Source of the DNA: Thermoproteota archaeon | GTDB lineage: Archaea > Thermoproteota > Thermoprotei_A > Sulfolobales > Ignisphaeraceae | DNA length: 32,625 nucleotides | NCBI GenBank assembly: GCA_030550585.1 | Contig: JAUQPB010000001.1 | Location: forward strand, 738,525 to 771,149 | Direction of reading: 5' to 3' | Shown: piece by piece, positions 3,143 through 32,523 of the stretch | How the letters are laid out: each line of letters starts with the position of its first letter | Numbering within the stretch: position 1 is the first letter of the stretch | The notes under the pieces: generated by a model | Database searches by the model: none | Told to the model about the DNA's origin: nothing | The model's input: only the letters and a program-made list of their open reading frames with translations | Position numbers and translations under genes: made by a program

Positions 3143-3494
3143 CCAGTTATAATGGCAAAACCCTTTAAGCCTTTCAGCACAACTTTTTAAACATGCGTTA
3201 AACCCTTACCGACTTACGCCAACACTCTACTACTTCACGCCTCCTACTTGGAGGTGCCGGTACCATCTTTACCTTGCCGTCTCGCTTAGGCTAGTAGCAT
3301 GGTTCAGTTGAGCTACTAAGTAGCTCAGCACAGGGGAGAAGCACCATCACAACTGCTCCTATTGCAAGTAGTGTGAGCGGGGTTTCTCTGCAAGACCTCT
3401 ACAGTGCCTTACTCACAATAGTTAACTATGCCGTGTATATTTTTTCACCATCAACATATACTTCAATTTTTTGGAAACGTGATGCCTTTGAGAA
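3143..3494. other. gene-free stretch
   Basis: No supported gene is seen. It contains a palindrome GAGCTACT-A-AGTAGCTC near 3310-3326 and a weak CCTCC/GGAGG stem near 3240-3256. Short open frames in the right half are shadows of, or run into, the minus-strand gene at 3495. Confidence 0.45.
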
Positions 3495-3680
3495 CTATTT
3501 TAATCTTGTGTTTTTCATTATCTCCAACATCCATTTCAAGTTATTTTTGAATCCTATAGCATAGGTTTCCACAACTCTTCTTCCATCAACATCAACTATT
3601 AGTTTTCCAGTCCATTCAGAGTAACGTATGAAAATCTCATGTTTCTCTTGTTTCCCTATGATAAAACGATATTCGGTCAA
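3495..3680 (-). CDS. hypothetical protein, 61 aa
   Basis: The product begins MTEYRFIIGKQEKHEIFIRY and continues through WTGKLIVDVDGRRVVET to a lysine-rich end. The first 40 residues alternate hydrophobic and polar residues as in a small beta-sheet domain, with WTGKL and VDGRRV resembling turns between strands. No family is recognised with confidence. It lies on the same strand as the next small gene, 24 bases away, in a region rich in remnants, so it may be a truncated piece of a longer protein. The composition looks like real coding sequence. Confidence 0.45.
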   Translation of the reverse strand: MTEYRFIIGKQEKHEIFIRYSEWTGKLIVDVDGRRVVETYAIGFKNNLKWMLEIMKNTRLK

Positions 3681-3704
3681 TGTTATCCTAGGTGTTAGCG
3701 TTTC

Positions 3705-3908
3705 CTAGTCTCGACTAATAAATCTTTCACCAATACACACTTTATGCTTTGCACTTGGCTCTAGTGTGAGGGAGGTTTTTACGGGAGTTAGTAAGCCTAA
3801 TTTAAGCTCGTAGGCTAGGAGCTCTTCTAGCTCTTTGCAGTTTGGATAGCATCCCTCAACACATACCCAGAAAGCCTCATTGCGCCCTAACTCAATTATG
3901 TGATGCAT
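3705..3908 (-). CDS. hypothetical protein, 67 aa
   Basis: The frame starts at ATG (MHHIIELGRNEAFWVCVEGC) and encodes three cysteines in the first 24 residues (VCVEGCYPNC), then a helical stretch ELEELLAYELKLG and a C-terminal segment with one more cysteine. The four cysteines could bind a metal, but spacing does not match a standard zinc ribbon. I do not recognise a family. It could be a small independent gene or a fragment; the gene remnant ending at 4038 lies upstream on the same strand. Confidence 0.35.
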   Translation of the reverse strand: MHHIIELGRNEAFWVCVEGCYPNCKELEELLAYELKLGLLTPVKTSLTLEPSAKHKVCIGERFISRD

Positions 3909-4037
3909 CCCATGATAAGCGATGCACGAGATTTACCCTAGGTAGCCTAGAGAGTTAGGAACACACCTAAAACCTGCATCACTATGGGTGTGAGGAACTT
4001 GTGACTTTTTCACCGAAGGAATGCACCTAGACATTTG

Positions 4038-4199
4038 TTACCGATACTTGAAGTAGGTGTTGTCATTCCTCTTATCCACGTGTTCCTCGGGCATAACAAT
4101 GTATTTAGCGATTGAGTGTGCTTGTGCGGGGTTGTAGTTTACCTCCGCTACTAACTCTCCATAGATGGTTTCTAGCCTCCGGAGCCGGTGGACCCGGGT
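4038..4199 (-). pseudogene. 3' gene remnant cut off at the tRNA-like repeat
   Basis: On the minus strand an open frame with no start codon at its upstream end runs out of the tRNA-like sequence at 4174-4218 into protein-like sequence: ETIYGELVAEVNYNPAQAHS, then IAKYIVMPEEHVDKRND, ending NTYFKYR and TAA. The protein-like part begins exactly where the repeat stops (4173). This suggests that a recombination event replaced the 5' part of a gene by the tRNA fragment. The family is not recognised, so I cannot say whether the lost gene was an integrase, which would be the natural candidate. Confidence 0.4.
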
Positions 4200-4218
4200 T
4201 CAAATCCCGGCGGGCCCG
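4174..4218 (+). repeat. 3'-half tRNA-Arg(CCG)-like copy 1, possible att site
   Basis: The sequence fits tRNA positions about 29-73: anticodon loop CTCCGGA with anticodon CCG, 3' anticodon strand GCCGG, variable loop TGGAC, a perfect T arm CCGGG-TTCAAAT-CCCGG, 3' acceptor strand CGGGCCC and discriminator G. No CCA follows. The upstream bases do not supply a D arm or a GGGCCCG acceptor strand, so it is not a whole tRNA gene. The first 35 bases are identical to a second copy 960 bases downstream. Fragments spanning the anticodon loop to the 3' end are the typical attachment sites of archaeal tyrosine integrases. Confidence 0.65.
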
Positions 4219-4340
4219 TTGAAAACTTATCAGGACCATCGCTAACTCATGCTTGAAATGTATCAGTAGTTGAGACCCTGGAAGGACGCTGGTCTTTTTG
4301 CAGGATAGATTGTCGGGCGTGATTTATCCTAGAGTAGGGG

Positions 4341-4790
4341 TTAAGGTATAATCTTCAGCCAGGGTATTCTCTTGAAGTCCTCGTCAAAGGTTAGTATGGT
4401 GTCTATGCCGTATCGCTTGCAGGTTAAGGCTATGATAGCGTCTCCTGGAAGGAGTTTGTATTTTAACATAATTTCGTGGATTTCTTCTGTAGTCGCTACG
4501 TCTTGTAGAACAGCTATGTTGTTCTCCTCTACTAGCCTCCTAAGAGCCTCCAGCTCATCCTTCACGAAGTCGAGCCCGTGCTCAGCAACAATCCTGCGGA
4601 TATCATAAACTCCTCTTGCACCATACAGCTTGCTCGCCTTTACCCTAATTATTATGTATGATGCTTCCTCTATTGTTCTCAAGCTAGTGAATACCTCTTC
4701 GTGCCTAGCTAAGTGTCTGATAACTAGATCGGACTTGGGCTTGACATCGTGAAGTAAATAAATCAGAGCGTTTGAGTCTACGTATATCAA
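4341..4790 (-). CDS. PIN-domain toxin (VapC-like)
   Basis: This 149-residue protein is a PIN-domain ribonuclease, probably the toxin of a toxin-antitoxin pair that cleaves RNA when free. The acidic metal-binding positions are visible: D5 in VDSNAL, E41/E42 in TIEEAS, D117 in LPGDAIIAL and D136 in TFDEDF. Length is normal for archaeal VapC. Its ATG overlaps the stop of the upstream DUF104 antitoxin gene by four bases, so the two are translationally coupled. Both lie between two tRNA-like direct repeats, hinting at a mobile origin. The RNA target is not known. Confidence 0.87.
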   Translation of the reverse strand: MIYVDSNALIYLLHDVKPKSDLVIRHLARHEEVFTSLRTIEEASYIIIRVKASKLYGARGVYDIRRIVAEHGLDFVKDELEALRRLVEENNIAVLQDVATTEEIHEIMLKYKLLPGDAIIALTCKRYGIDTILTFDEDFKRIPWLKIIP

Positions 4791-5002
4791 AGCTGTTCTG
4801 CCTCCTCTATAGCCTCCTCTAAAAGCCCTTCGTCAACGGGGCCAAGCACTCCTCTATACCTTTGAAGCTTCCTAATACGTTCTTCAACATCAATAATTTT
4901 AACCAGTAGCTCTTCACCTTCAGGAAGCTCCAAAGGCTCCAAAGGCTTAAGAACCCCCTTCTCATACTTTACCCTGATAACCTTGGACACGCGTTCACCC
5001 AA
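4787..5002 (-). CDS. DUF104 (AF2212/PG0164-like) antitoxin
   Basis: The 71-residue product has the hallmark of this archaeal antitoxin family near its N-terminus: IRVKYEKGVLKPLEPLELPE followed by GEELLVKI, a short beta-rich DNA-binding or dimer part. Residues from about 38 to the end are helical and acidic and would wrap the partner toxin. It is directly upstream of the PIN toxin gene and overlaps it by four bases. The antitoxin is expected to neutralise the toxin and repress the operon. A second gene of the family, altered, lies at 5864-6157. Confidence 0.85.
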   Translation of the reverse strand: MGERVSKVIRVKYEKGVLKPLEPLELPEGEELLVKIIDVEERIRKLQRYRGVLGPVDEGLLEEAIEEAEQL

Positions 5003-5133
5003 TTACTATATATAGCTTTGGAGATTAAAACGTGTAGCAGGAAAATAACTCCACCGCTGGATAATACATAATCACTCCTACAAAAACGTTGTAAACACTC
5101 AACGGCTTCACGCAACATCCTTATATTGGTATC

Positions 5134-5181
5134 AGCCTCCGGAGCCGGTGGACCCGGGTTCAAATCCCCTCGGACCCGCCA
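5134..5181 (+). repeat. 3'-half tRNA-Arg(CCG)-like copy 2, possible att site
   Basis: This copy shares the first 35 bases with copy 1, from the anticodon stem to the T loop and three bases of the T stem. The rest differs: the 3' T strand is CCCCT, which pairs at only three of five positions, the acceptor strand is CGGACCC and the end is G-CCA. No 5' half is present upstream, so it is a fragment and not a working tRNA. The span between the two copies holds the DUF104/PIN toxin-antitoxin pair. It may mark the other end of an integrated element or of an earlier, diverged integration. Confidence 0.6.
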
Positions 5182-5264: not shown

Positions 5265-6010
5265 TTAGACAAAGTCTGCGATGGTATTGAGAACCGCTTT
5301 AGCAACTAAATTTTTGGTTCGCCTTAACCTCTGGGCGTCAAATCCTCTTATCCATTTTCCATCATGATGGAGCTCATCGGATACAGCTGCTATGATTCCG
5401 AGTTTCACGTTTCTTCAGCTACAGTCATTAAAGCAGTTGATTCCATGTCTACTCCATAAATTCGTTTAGAGGAATATTCTATAACTTTGCCGATGGTTTC
5501 TCTAAATATTGCATCAGTTGTCCAAACACCTCCCTTAATCACTTTATTTCCTTTCCTCCCTTTCAATTCAATTGCATACTTGTAGAGAGTCTCGACTGGC
5601 TTACTATCAGGCTTCGGCACATAGGAATTAGCAGGTATTTAGTGGAAACTTGTTCCTTCTTTACGTACTCACCATACTGGAATAAGCACATCACCAATTT
5701 TTAACGCTGGGCTAATCGCTCCAACATACCCAACAACCACGAATACTTCGCCGCCTATAGCCGTAAGGACTTCGAGAGCTGCTACAGTTGCAGGAGATCC
5801 AGGGAATGGAAGAGTAATGACCACTTCCTTACCATGATACACGCCTTCGTAACTCTTGAAAAGTCAGCCACTCAACTTTATAGGTTTGGTATATCCTAGC
5901 TCCCTCTCTAACTTCATAAAAAGTCTTGGTGCAAAGGCAATAACGACCCCTTTATTATGTAATATCTTATCTTTTTTAAGATCATAAGGATCTATAATTG
6001 ATTTTTCACT
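5265..6010 (-). pseudogene. decayed nucleoside phosphorylase (PNP/UDP family)
   Basis: Minus-strand segments line up as one phosphorylase. In order they read IIDPYDL..DKILHNKGVVIAF, then FPGSPATVAALEVLTAIGG with GYVGAISPALKIGDVLIP, then PANSYVPKPDSKPVETLYKY, GGVWTTDAIFRETIGKVIEY, GVDMESTALMTVAEE and VKLGIIAAVSDELHHDGKW. The VDMES motif and the SDE near the end are typical of the family, which splits nucleosides with phosphate. The frame is broken by TGA at 5861-5863, TGA then TAA near 5640-5670, and a one-base loss near 5405 in an A run. The 5' end is joined to an antitoxin-like sequence. It cannot make a full enzyme. Confidence 0.85.
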
Positions 6011-6157
6011 GTTACCAAAACTAGAAAATATTTCACTAACAGAGATTTTCTTATCCCTTACGATAACTATATAAGTCTCCTCACCTTCACTCATGTCAAG
6101 AGGTTCTAATGGTTTCAGTACTCCCTTCCCATATCTTACTTGTATAGTCTTAGGCAA
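5864..6157 (-). CDS. DUF104 antitoxin fused to phosphorylase N-terminus
   Basis: Residues 1 to about 45 are a DUF104-type antitoxin (TIQVRYGKGVLKPLEPLDMS then GEETYIVIV, close to the neighbour at 4787). Residues from about 53 on (IIDPYDLKKDKILHNKGVVI, ELGYTKPIKLSG) are the N-terminus of the nucleoside phosphorylase whose remains continue downstream in the same frame after a TGA. No toxin gene follows. The start is TTG at 6157, with an AT-rich promoter-like GATATAAAATAAT about 30 bases upstream. The open frame could be expressed as a 97-residue chimera, or be a dead product of a deletion that joined two genes. Confidence 0.55.
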   Translation of the reverse strand: MPKTIQVRYGKGVLKPLEPLDMSEGEETYIVIVRDKKISVSEIFSSFGNSEKSIIDPYDLKKDKILHNKGVVIAFAPRLFMKLERELGYTKPIKLSG

Positions 6158-31064: not shown

Positions 31065-31482
31065 ACACATAGACTCCACAACGAGAAAACACAACAAAAA
31101 CCTTCTAAAAACAAAGTCCCAAGCCACATAGGTTTCCAGCCCACACAAAACAATAGAGTTTTAAGCTTTTCATCTCTTTCCATATTCTGTACATACAGTG
31201 CGGGGTCTGCCAAGATATTTAAGCTCTTTAAAAGCTTTTATGGGGTCTTCGCAACAATCTCTATGTATACAATTTTGTCAACTCCTTCTCAAAACTCTTT
31301 ATGGTGTTCATTGCAATAGCTGTATTGCAGCTATGGTCTCTTCAGATCATTGATGTTTTATGGCAATCGCATTGCGATTAACACTAATTTGCTTAAAAGC
31401 TTTTATACCAGATTCAACACATAGTATATTGAACTGCTTCGAATCCGCAAATGGAGACTCTCAAACAAGAGAACCAAGCACA
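31065..31482 (+). promoter_or_regulatory. CRISPR leader
   Basis: No gene lies in these 418 bases. The box TTAAAAGCTTTTAT occurs twice, in 31227-31240 and in 31392-31405, and the second could act as the array's TATA region, giving a start near 31430. Two palindromes stand between them: ATAGCTG-TATTG-CAGCTAT (31316-31334) and AATCGCA-T-TGCGATT (31365-31379). A repeat-like GAATCCGCAAATGGA occurs at 31441-31455, 42 bases before the first repeat. Placement upstream of the side from which spacers follow the ATTGAAAG end makes this the leader. Confidence 0.65.
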
Positions 31483-32523
31483 GAATCCAATAAATGGAAT
31501 TGAAAGGTATACGAACACCCTCTGTCCTAGGAGCTTGGGTCTCGTCAACTTGGAATCCAATAAATGGAATTGAAAGGTTATAGGCTATCACAGGGCTCTT
31601 ATCGACGGCGGCAAGCAAGAATCCAATAAATGGAATTGAAAGAGATAGGATTTAGTCAAATTAATGAGGCTTTTCTTGATCAGCTCCCTCGAATCCAATA
31701 AATGGAATTGAAAGCTGGCTCTGCCAACATCAGATCTACCAGCCAGTTGAAGAATCCAATAAATGGAATTGAAAGTCCATTAGCTTTAGAACCTCTCTGA
31801 ACATCGACAGCAGGATATCGAATCCAATAAATGGAATTGAAAGTTACGCTCACGACATATCTTACCCTATCGCTTAGTTGTTGGATGAATCCAATAAATG
31901 GAATTGAAAGCGTTAGTCTCATACGCGGCAATTTCAACGGCATTTTGTATGAATCCAATAAATGGAATTGAAAGAATCTTGGAAACTGGTCTATTATTTG
32001 CCATGCGAGGCTGTTGTGAATCCAATAAATGGAATTGAAAGTTATCATGTTTTCGATTTCTTGTGGTGTTAGTGTGATCTGCTTTGAATCCAATAAATGG
32101 AATTGAAAGAAAACAAGATACTATTCGAGAACAGTATAAGGTCTCAGAAAAGCTTCGAGAACCAGAATCCAATAAATGGAATTGAAAGACATCAACAACA
32201 ACACGCGGCACACGAACACCAATACCGGCTGAATCCAATAAATGGAATTGAAAGTTTCAAAAATTATTTTTTGTTTTGAATTTTGAGTTTGGGTTTGGGA
32301 ATCCAATAAATGGAATTGAAAGTAAATCTCTCTCTATCGCTCTCAGAACCATTACAACAGCAACTGAATCCAATAAATGGAATTGAAAGCAAGGAAATCT
32401 GATATCTGCATTACTCCAGTTCTATCGATAGCTGAATCCAATAAATGGAATTGAAAGTGATCGGGTCGTGCACCTTGAACTCAATCAGTTCGATGCGATG
32501 AATCCAATAAATGGAATTGAAAG
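31483..32523 (+). CRISPR. CRISPR array, 16 repeats and 15 spacers
   Basis: A 24-base repeat beginning GAATCC and ending ATTGAAAG occurs 16 times, all copies identical as far as I can see. Repeats start at 31483, 31553, 31619, 31691, 31752, 31820, 31887, 31951, 32018, 32086, 32165, 32231, 32299, 32366, 32434 and 32500. Spacers are 46, 42, 48, 37, 44, 43, 40, 43, 44, 55, 42, 44, 43, 44 and 42 bases. The last eight bases match the 5' handle of crenarchaeal crRNAs, so transcription is rightward. No cas gene is in the window. Short open frames in the array (for example spelling FNSIYWI or LSIPFIGF) are repeat translations and not genes. Confidence 0.97.

Follow-up and report, generated by a model that had tools for sequence, protein, structure and literature searches.

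A toxin-antitoxin pair between two tRNA-Arg 3' halves in a Thermoproteota archaeon, probably one copy of a non-autonomous integrative cassette

The repeat pair, its genes and the occupied tRNA gene

The DNA analysed here, hereafter the window, is a stretch of 32,625 nucleotides from a Thermoproteota archaeon of the Ignisphaeraceae (contig JAUQPB010000001.1; C4:738525-771149 of the 1.76 Mb genome G000), in which a toxin-antitoxin (TA) pair lies between two 3' halves of a tRNA-Arg sequence. A 35-nt repeat, AGCCTCCGGAGCCGGTGGACCCGGGTTCAAATCCC, was located at 4174-4208 and 5134-5168, both on the plus strand; the copies are exact and start 960 nt apart, which agrees with the original prediction of identical 35-base repeats flanking a DUF104/PIN pair. 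Its description of the two halves was likewise borne out on reading. Half 1 has a perfect T arm and the acceptor 3' strand without CCA, and its 3' edge reads ..GGCGGGCCCG followed by TTGAAA, whereas the T stem of half 2 is mismatched (CCCCT) and CCA is present at 5179-5181. The parts of the unit are as follows.

4174-4218, plus strand: half 1 (core), a 3' half of tRNA-Arg(CCG) type that spans anticodon stem to discriminator base
4219-4340: P'-side spacer of 122 nt from the half 1 core to the PIN stop (118-163 nt in most relatives)
4341-4790, minus strand: PIN-domain toxin, 149 aa, TTG start (PF01850, E 1.3e-19)
4787-5002, minus strand: AF2212-like antitoxin (formerly DUF104), 71 aa, TTG start (PF01954, E 4.5e-17)
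5003-5133: P-side arm, alignable over its full length with the arms of L015, L127, L139, L152 and L244
5088-5117: type-B inverted repeat in degenerate form (cgTTGTaa..acGCAACA, 4 mismatches; TGTTGCA..TGCAACA in relatives), 16 nt ahead of the core
5134-5181, plus strand: half 2 (core), CCG-type up to the T loop, then CTCGGACCCG and CCA, with a damaged T stem

The antitoxin gene lies directly upstream of the toxin gene and overlaps its start, and the acidic residues D5, E42, D117 and D136 of the toxin are conserved in an alignment with relatives. Judged by gene content, this is an AF2212/PIN (VapBC-like) type II TA pair. A reading of half 2 as a clean CCG/TCG hybrid was discarded, 2 versus 3 differences being too weak a basis.

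ARAGORN detected no tRNA gene within the window, and neither half was among the 42 RF00005 matches of the genome. Intact genes for tRNA-Arg(CCG), (TCG), (GCG) and (TCT) are all present elsewhere in the genome and no tRNA match spans the halves; because complete tRNA-Arg genes exist, the halves are not split, trans-spliced or intron-bearing tRNAs in use, the case that had been set against the original prediction. The 27-nt core occurs in three exact copies in the genome versus none in a reversed control, the third copy being the far end of an integrated element, so that its recurrence is far beyond chance.

The intact tRNA-Arg(CCG) gene, at C4:242797 and 0.5 Mb from the window, differs from the window halves at two positions (GGAGGTC for GGTGGAC); an exact match to the window form is provided by the intact tRNA-Arg(CCG) gene of the congener G005, in its 3' half. 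An intact tRNA-Arg(TCG) gene lies at C4:732248, 6.2 kb left of the window, and the halves follow it at +10,373 and +11,333 in the same orientation. Its end is overlapped by an integrase remnant of 179 aa (C4:732258-732794, E 4e-47), which is the nearby integrase sought by the original prediction and, like the tRNA gene, lies outside the window; none was found inside the 960-bp unit itself. The local order is tRNA-Arg(TCG), a decayed element of ~10.4 kb, half 1, the TA pair, the arm and half 2. Integration at a tRNA gene, as originally proposed, is supported by the intact gene, the integrase remnant and the displaced halves, but the gene concerned is tRNA-Arg(TCG) and not tRNA-Arg(CCG). Integration at the latter was rejected, since it already holds another element of 17 kb with a full 439-aa integrase. 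That element (L013; G000:C4:242797-259990) is apparently intact, its integrase (L013:1418-2734) belongs to PF16795, and a perfect TGTTTCAG..CTGAAACA arm stands ahead of its displaced half. At a third tRNA-Arg gene, Arg(GCG) on C7, a TA pair is located between the gene and a half over ~1.55 kb.

The left junction was examined by blastn and reading.

3290-4173: left flank, with gene X in truncated form; 891 nt match G005:C12, from the same genus, at 93% identity

The identity with G005:C12 (3290-4178, 93%) breaks off exactly at the 5' edge of half 1, and the gene interrupted there is continuous in G005, which on this comparison marks half 1 as a real breakpoint. The history involved more than one event, because the other side of the G005 gene is absent after half 2. 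No core follows tRNA-Arg(TCG) in G006 and G008, where local synteny is too poor to define the exact empty site. Synteny with G006, G008 and G009 established no exact empty site for the whole element, the local gene order being too rearranged.

Recurrence, shared cassettes and the conserved arm

Homologous loci, mainly from metagenome-assembled genomes (MAGs) of Acidilobaceae, Pyrodictiaceae and other Desulfurococcales-type archaea, were fetched by PIN similarity alone, irrespective of tRNAs. A tRNA-Arg 3' half was present on the opposite strand within 500 nt upstream of 67 of the 121 antitoxins, nearly always at ~144-169 nt, against 4 on the other strand and 0 in shuffles. On the toxin side, a core or tRNA-Arg end was found past the stop in 65 of 106 PIN genes, nearly all at 118-163 nt (controls, 3 on the reverse strand and 1 shuffled). 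An earlier, partly overlapping set gave 31 of 64 antitoxins versus controls of 2 and 0. Of the 222 cores collected in the loci, 135 were orphan halves, and the left edge of the core was reproducibly near the anticodon loop. The minimal TA-only element of the original prediction is supported, as one case of a widespread cassette class and not as a one-off island.

In many orphan cores (L130, L168, L182, L183, L190, L211, L236 and L239), recurring non-tRNA T loops were observed (TCCACTAA, TCCATGAA and CTAGAAA), around which the GGG and CCC stems are kept. A search of the orphan halves for T-stem covariation, a sign of a functional hairpin, gave no consensus structure, and its control was uninformative.

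Behind intact tRNA-Arg(TCG), (CCG) and (GCG) genes in several families of the order, TA pairs and halves alternate in arrays (tRNA-Arg, TA, half, TA, half and so on). The cargo comprises the unrelated TA families AF2212/PIN, DUF433/DUF5615, UPF0175/DUF3368, HEPN/MNT, PaREP1 with a partner, and PIN_2, as well as cargo that is not obviously TA, namely a PEBP-family protein (L201:1994-2596) and L127:12381-13580, which is without a Pfam match. Cassettes common to arrays of different genomes end at the cores (for example L193/L195, L135/L180 and L132/L214), and whole core-to-core blocks are 83-90% identical between them. Between the same neighbours, two cassettes of L132 are missing from L129. One cassette recurs in similar form (84% over 835 nt) at two different tRNA-Arg genes: its cores are of the CTTCGG form in L132, where the gene is Arg(TCG), and of the CTGCGG form in L131, where it is Arg(GCG). 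In 43 of 57 halves the wobble letter equals that of the neighbouring intact tRNA-Arg, where 26 were expected (P 4e-4, shuffled by locus), an agreement that exchange at the tRNA gene predicts.

The arrangement of the window locus recurs in G040:C47, but with an integrase of 444 aa that is intact; G040 belongs to a different family of the order. The TA pair closest to that of the window is located there (L127:13790-16660, 89% DNA identity over 720 nt), in an interval that opens with a core and an integrase remnant and closes with a type-D arm and a core. In the toxin genes, the last ~107-134 nt (window 4341-4475; PIN genes of L129, L174, L210, L212 and L234) were found to be 80-88% identical across genomes, while the remainder was not alignable at the DNA level in those cases; it is possible that toxin N-termini are swapped at the conserved 3' end of the gene.

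The arm before each core contains three copies of one 8-nt site, whose distance to the half is fixed. Most arms of the main types have their inverted repeat, with a spacer of 14-16 nt, 16-17 nt from the core, and the third copy lies ~50 nt farther out. Four sequence types, A to D, were distinguished (TGTTTCCA, TGTTGCAT, TGTCCCA and TGTTTCAG), and the third site follows the cassette's own type (A, 43 of 53; B, 13 of 20; C, 18 of 26), foreign types reaching at most 6 of 53. Arm geometry is independent of cargo, and arm type does not track antitoxin family. In the PaREP1 cassettes (L135 and L206), the genes point toward the arm and the type C layout stands downstream of the gene pairs on the other strand; the arm is not the promoter of this cargo, because it lies behind those genes. 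In L013 and L127, elements that carry an integrase have a type D arm at their distal end.

PF16795 integrases are encoded directly after tRNA-Arg in G000, G040, G019 and G009. These are detected with PF16795 and missed by PF00589, which sees mainly one XerA-like gene per genome. A helix-turn-helix-like stretch near the N-terminus of the integrase, recognised by eye, is a candidate arm binder. In G000:C7 (73.8-76.5 kb; L015:3824-6450), two inverted tRNA-Thr 3' halves, whose upstream flanks are nearly identical, bound a segment of ~2.5 kb that encodes an integrase of 422 aa, inverted attachment sites being unusual.

Proposed mechanism and rival explanations

The window probably contains one non-autonomous integrative TA cassette of ~1 kb, with tRNA-derived attachment sites, that is served by a PF16795-type integrase in trans. 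The anatomy, its recurrence, the constant spacing, the arm geometry, the sharing of cassettes up to the core and the integrases beside tRNA-Arg are established, and the following mechanism would account for them. Each cassette comprises a core, ~120-160 bp, a toxin gene, an antitoxin gene and an arm of ~150 bp whose sites end 16-17 nt before the next core; the core is the 3' half of a tRNA-Arg, beginning in the anticodon stem and continuing to the 3' end, and the three arm sites are copies of a putative binding site. When excised, the cassette would form a circle with a core that corresponds to a tRNA-Arg gene or to that of a cassette already in place. PF16795-type integrases, archaeal tyrosine recombinases from larger elements at the same tRNA-Arg genes, probably move the cassettes in trans. 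A crossover between two cores near the anticodon loop would keep the tRNA gene whole and place the displaced 3' half at the far end, and repeated insertion would build arrays in which the TA pairs differ. The window cassette lies at the far end of the decayed element at tRNA-Arg(TCG).

Alternatively, full-size elements may have entered the tRNA-Arg genes successively and decayed, so that only the addictive TA pair and the attachment halves survive, as cis-mobilizable elements stacked by tandem accretion, and the ~1 kb units are not mobile as such. Integrase elements of ~9-17 kb do occupy the same tRNA-Arg genes, some with broken integrases (L012, L132 and L127), the interval that contains the G040 TA pair nearest to that of the window has an integrase remnant on the left, and decayed bacterial elements that keep attL and attR provide a precedent (PMC5704250). 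Decay would be expected to leave random spacing, however, and both spacings stay within ~20-40 nt over several families; moreover, one- or two-gene cassettes recur with unrelated TA families. The constant spacing and the sharing of blocks from core to core favour the mobile cassette, and relics of this kind appear unlikely, although some room is left for them because G022 has XerA as its sole integrase and the circles are hypothetical.

Homologous recombination and tandem duplication between tRNA halves, with TA pairs tolerated there and no site-specific recombinase, seem improbable. The repeats are long enough and the genus-type core is identical in several places, but the arrays would remain unexplained, as neighbouring pairs come from unrelated TA families, and neither the reproducible left edge of the core nor the fixed geometry of arm to core is accounted for. 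More improbable still is that the arm is only an operator or promoter of the antitoxin gene, with a tRNA half that stands there incidentally or serves the TA operon as an RNA decoy or terminator. Many PIN toxins cut tRNAs, and the arm, with a TATA-like box, does lie upstream of AF2212 antitoxin genes. Against this stand the type C layout behind the PaREP1 pairs, the type D arm at the far end of integrase elements, the independence of arm type from antitoxin family and the lack of demonstrable T-stem covariation in orphan halves.

Several observations weigh against a cassette moved in trans. About half of the sampled TA pairs have no core. In the window itself the inverted repeat is a degenerate one, no arm stands to the left of half 1, and a simple attL/attR pair is not what the two halves make up. 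Where an intact integrase adjoins the tRNA, the arm found at the distal end of the element is of type D, with a single exception of type B (L139), where a TA pair stands in between; for cassettes of types A and B, a cognate integrase is so far hypothetical. In the complete genome G022, an array is present but no PF16795 match was obtained, only one XerA-like recombinase, and the cassettes there may be relics. Among viral contigs, no PIN relative and no exact arm-plus-core pattern of type A or C was found, and hence no carrier; the bare core pattern gave a single match, in an SSV1-sized contig of 15,465 bp with the attP core inside its integrase gene, and a viral carrier was rejected on these grounds. 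Recombination in trans, the circles and the acting integrase are themselves what we infer.

Further features were recorded outside the unit.

5405-5620, right of half 2: gene fragment resembling a PNP/UDP phosphorylase (PF01048 match below cut-off), apparently in decay
5864-6157, minus strand: second AF2212-like antitoxin frame (PF01954, E 1.2e-13)
31472-32523, near the window end: CRISPR-like array in which GAATCCAATAAATGGAATTGAAAG recurs at least 16 times at a spacing of 61-79 nt

No recognisable toxin or core adjoins the second antitoxin frame and no half lies upstream of it; it is a probable remnant of another TA pair. Elsewhere in the genome (C1), another orphan tRNA-Arg(GCG)-type half was observed at L014:2030, with a degenerate whole tRNA-Arg-like sequence 2.7 kb on (L014:4766).

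Relation to known systems and significance

The nearest bacterial concept is that of cis-mobilizable elements (CIMEs) and the tandem accretion of integrative and conjugative or mobilizable elements (PMC5704250). As in those cases, the window unit has no recombinase, retains its attachment sites and stands in tandem with related, integrase-bearing elements behind a single target gene. The literature describes CIMEs as large elements in decay, whereas the archaeal unit is ~1 kb long, of constant build and with mainly TA cargo, and no conjugation genes were seen with the archaeal cassettes.

TA cassettes are common in superintegrons. Integrons and clusters of attC sites lacking integron-integrases (CALINs), including archaeal integrons (PMC9668308), are also tandem one- to two-gene cassettes bounded by recombination sites, often without an adjacent integrase gene. 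Archaeal integrons use attC (PMC9668308), whereas the cassette site here is a tRNA-Arg 3' half with a long arm and the array starts at a tRNA gene and not at attI. AF2212/PIN cassettes also retain an upstream region of their own and are oriented against the tRNA, and the candidate integrase is of the PF16795 type and not IntI. The boundaries found were tRNA-Arg halves, no attC-specific search having been made, and PF00589 matched mostly the one XerA-like gene per genome. By analogy, the tRNA-half arrays would work like cassette arrays, and we do not class them as integrons.

SSV1 and SSV-type elements at tRNA-Arg(CCG) share the target and the 3'-half core, and the overlap region of Int-SSV1 is the anticodon loop (PMC8371274). 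They differ in the position of the attP core, inside the integrase gene in the SSV1-sized contig, whereas the cassettes lack an integrase, and their arm differs. TA islands with clustered pairs of different classes, unexplained by tandem duplication, were described by Makarova et al. in 2009 (PMC2701414); no tRNA half or integrase was linked to them, and preferential incorporation or horizontal transfer of cassettes was left as a possibility. The word 'toxin' is absent from a 2021 review of archaeal tyrosine recombinases (PMC8371274), and no description of TA cassettes bounded by tRNA halves was found in open PMC text, which is not proof of absence, subscription papers and preprints being outside that scope.

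It is conceivable, if somewhat short of probable, that hyperthermophiles of the Thermoproteota possess a system analogous to integrons but of independent origin, in which tRNA-Arg 3' halves and a three-site arm allow PF16795 integrases to shuffle TA cassettes in trans between genomes and tRNA-Arg genes. If so, cassette arrays of a second kind would join the integrons, and they would supply matched pairs of integrase and attachment site that differ in arm specificity. The tRNA halves offer a simple signature for locating such arrays in MAGs. The clustering of TA pairs in heat-loving archaea would thereby receive a concrete, testable account, as site-specific recombination units parked behind tRNA-Arg genes.
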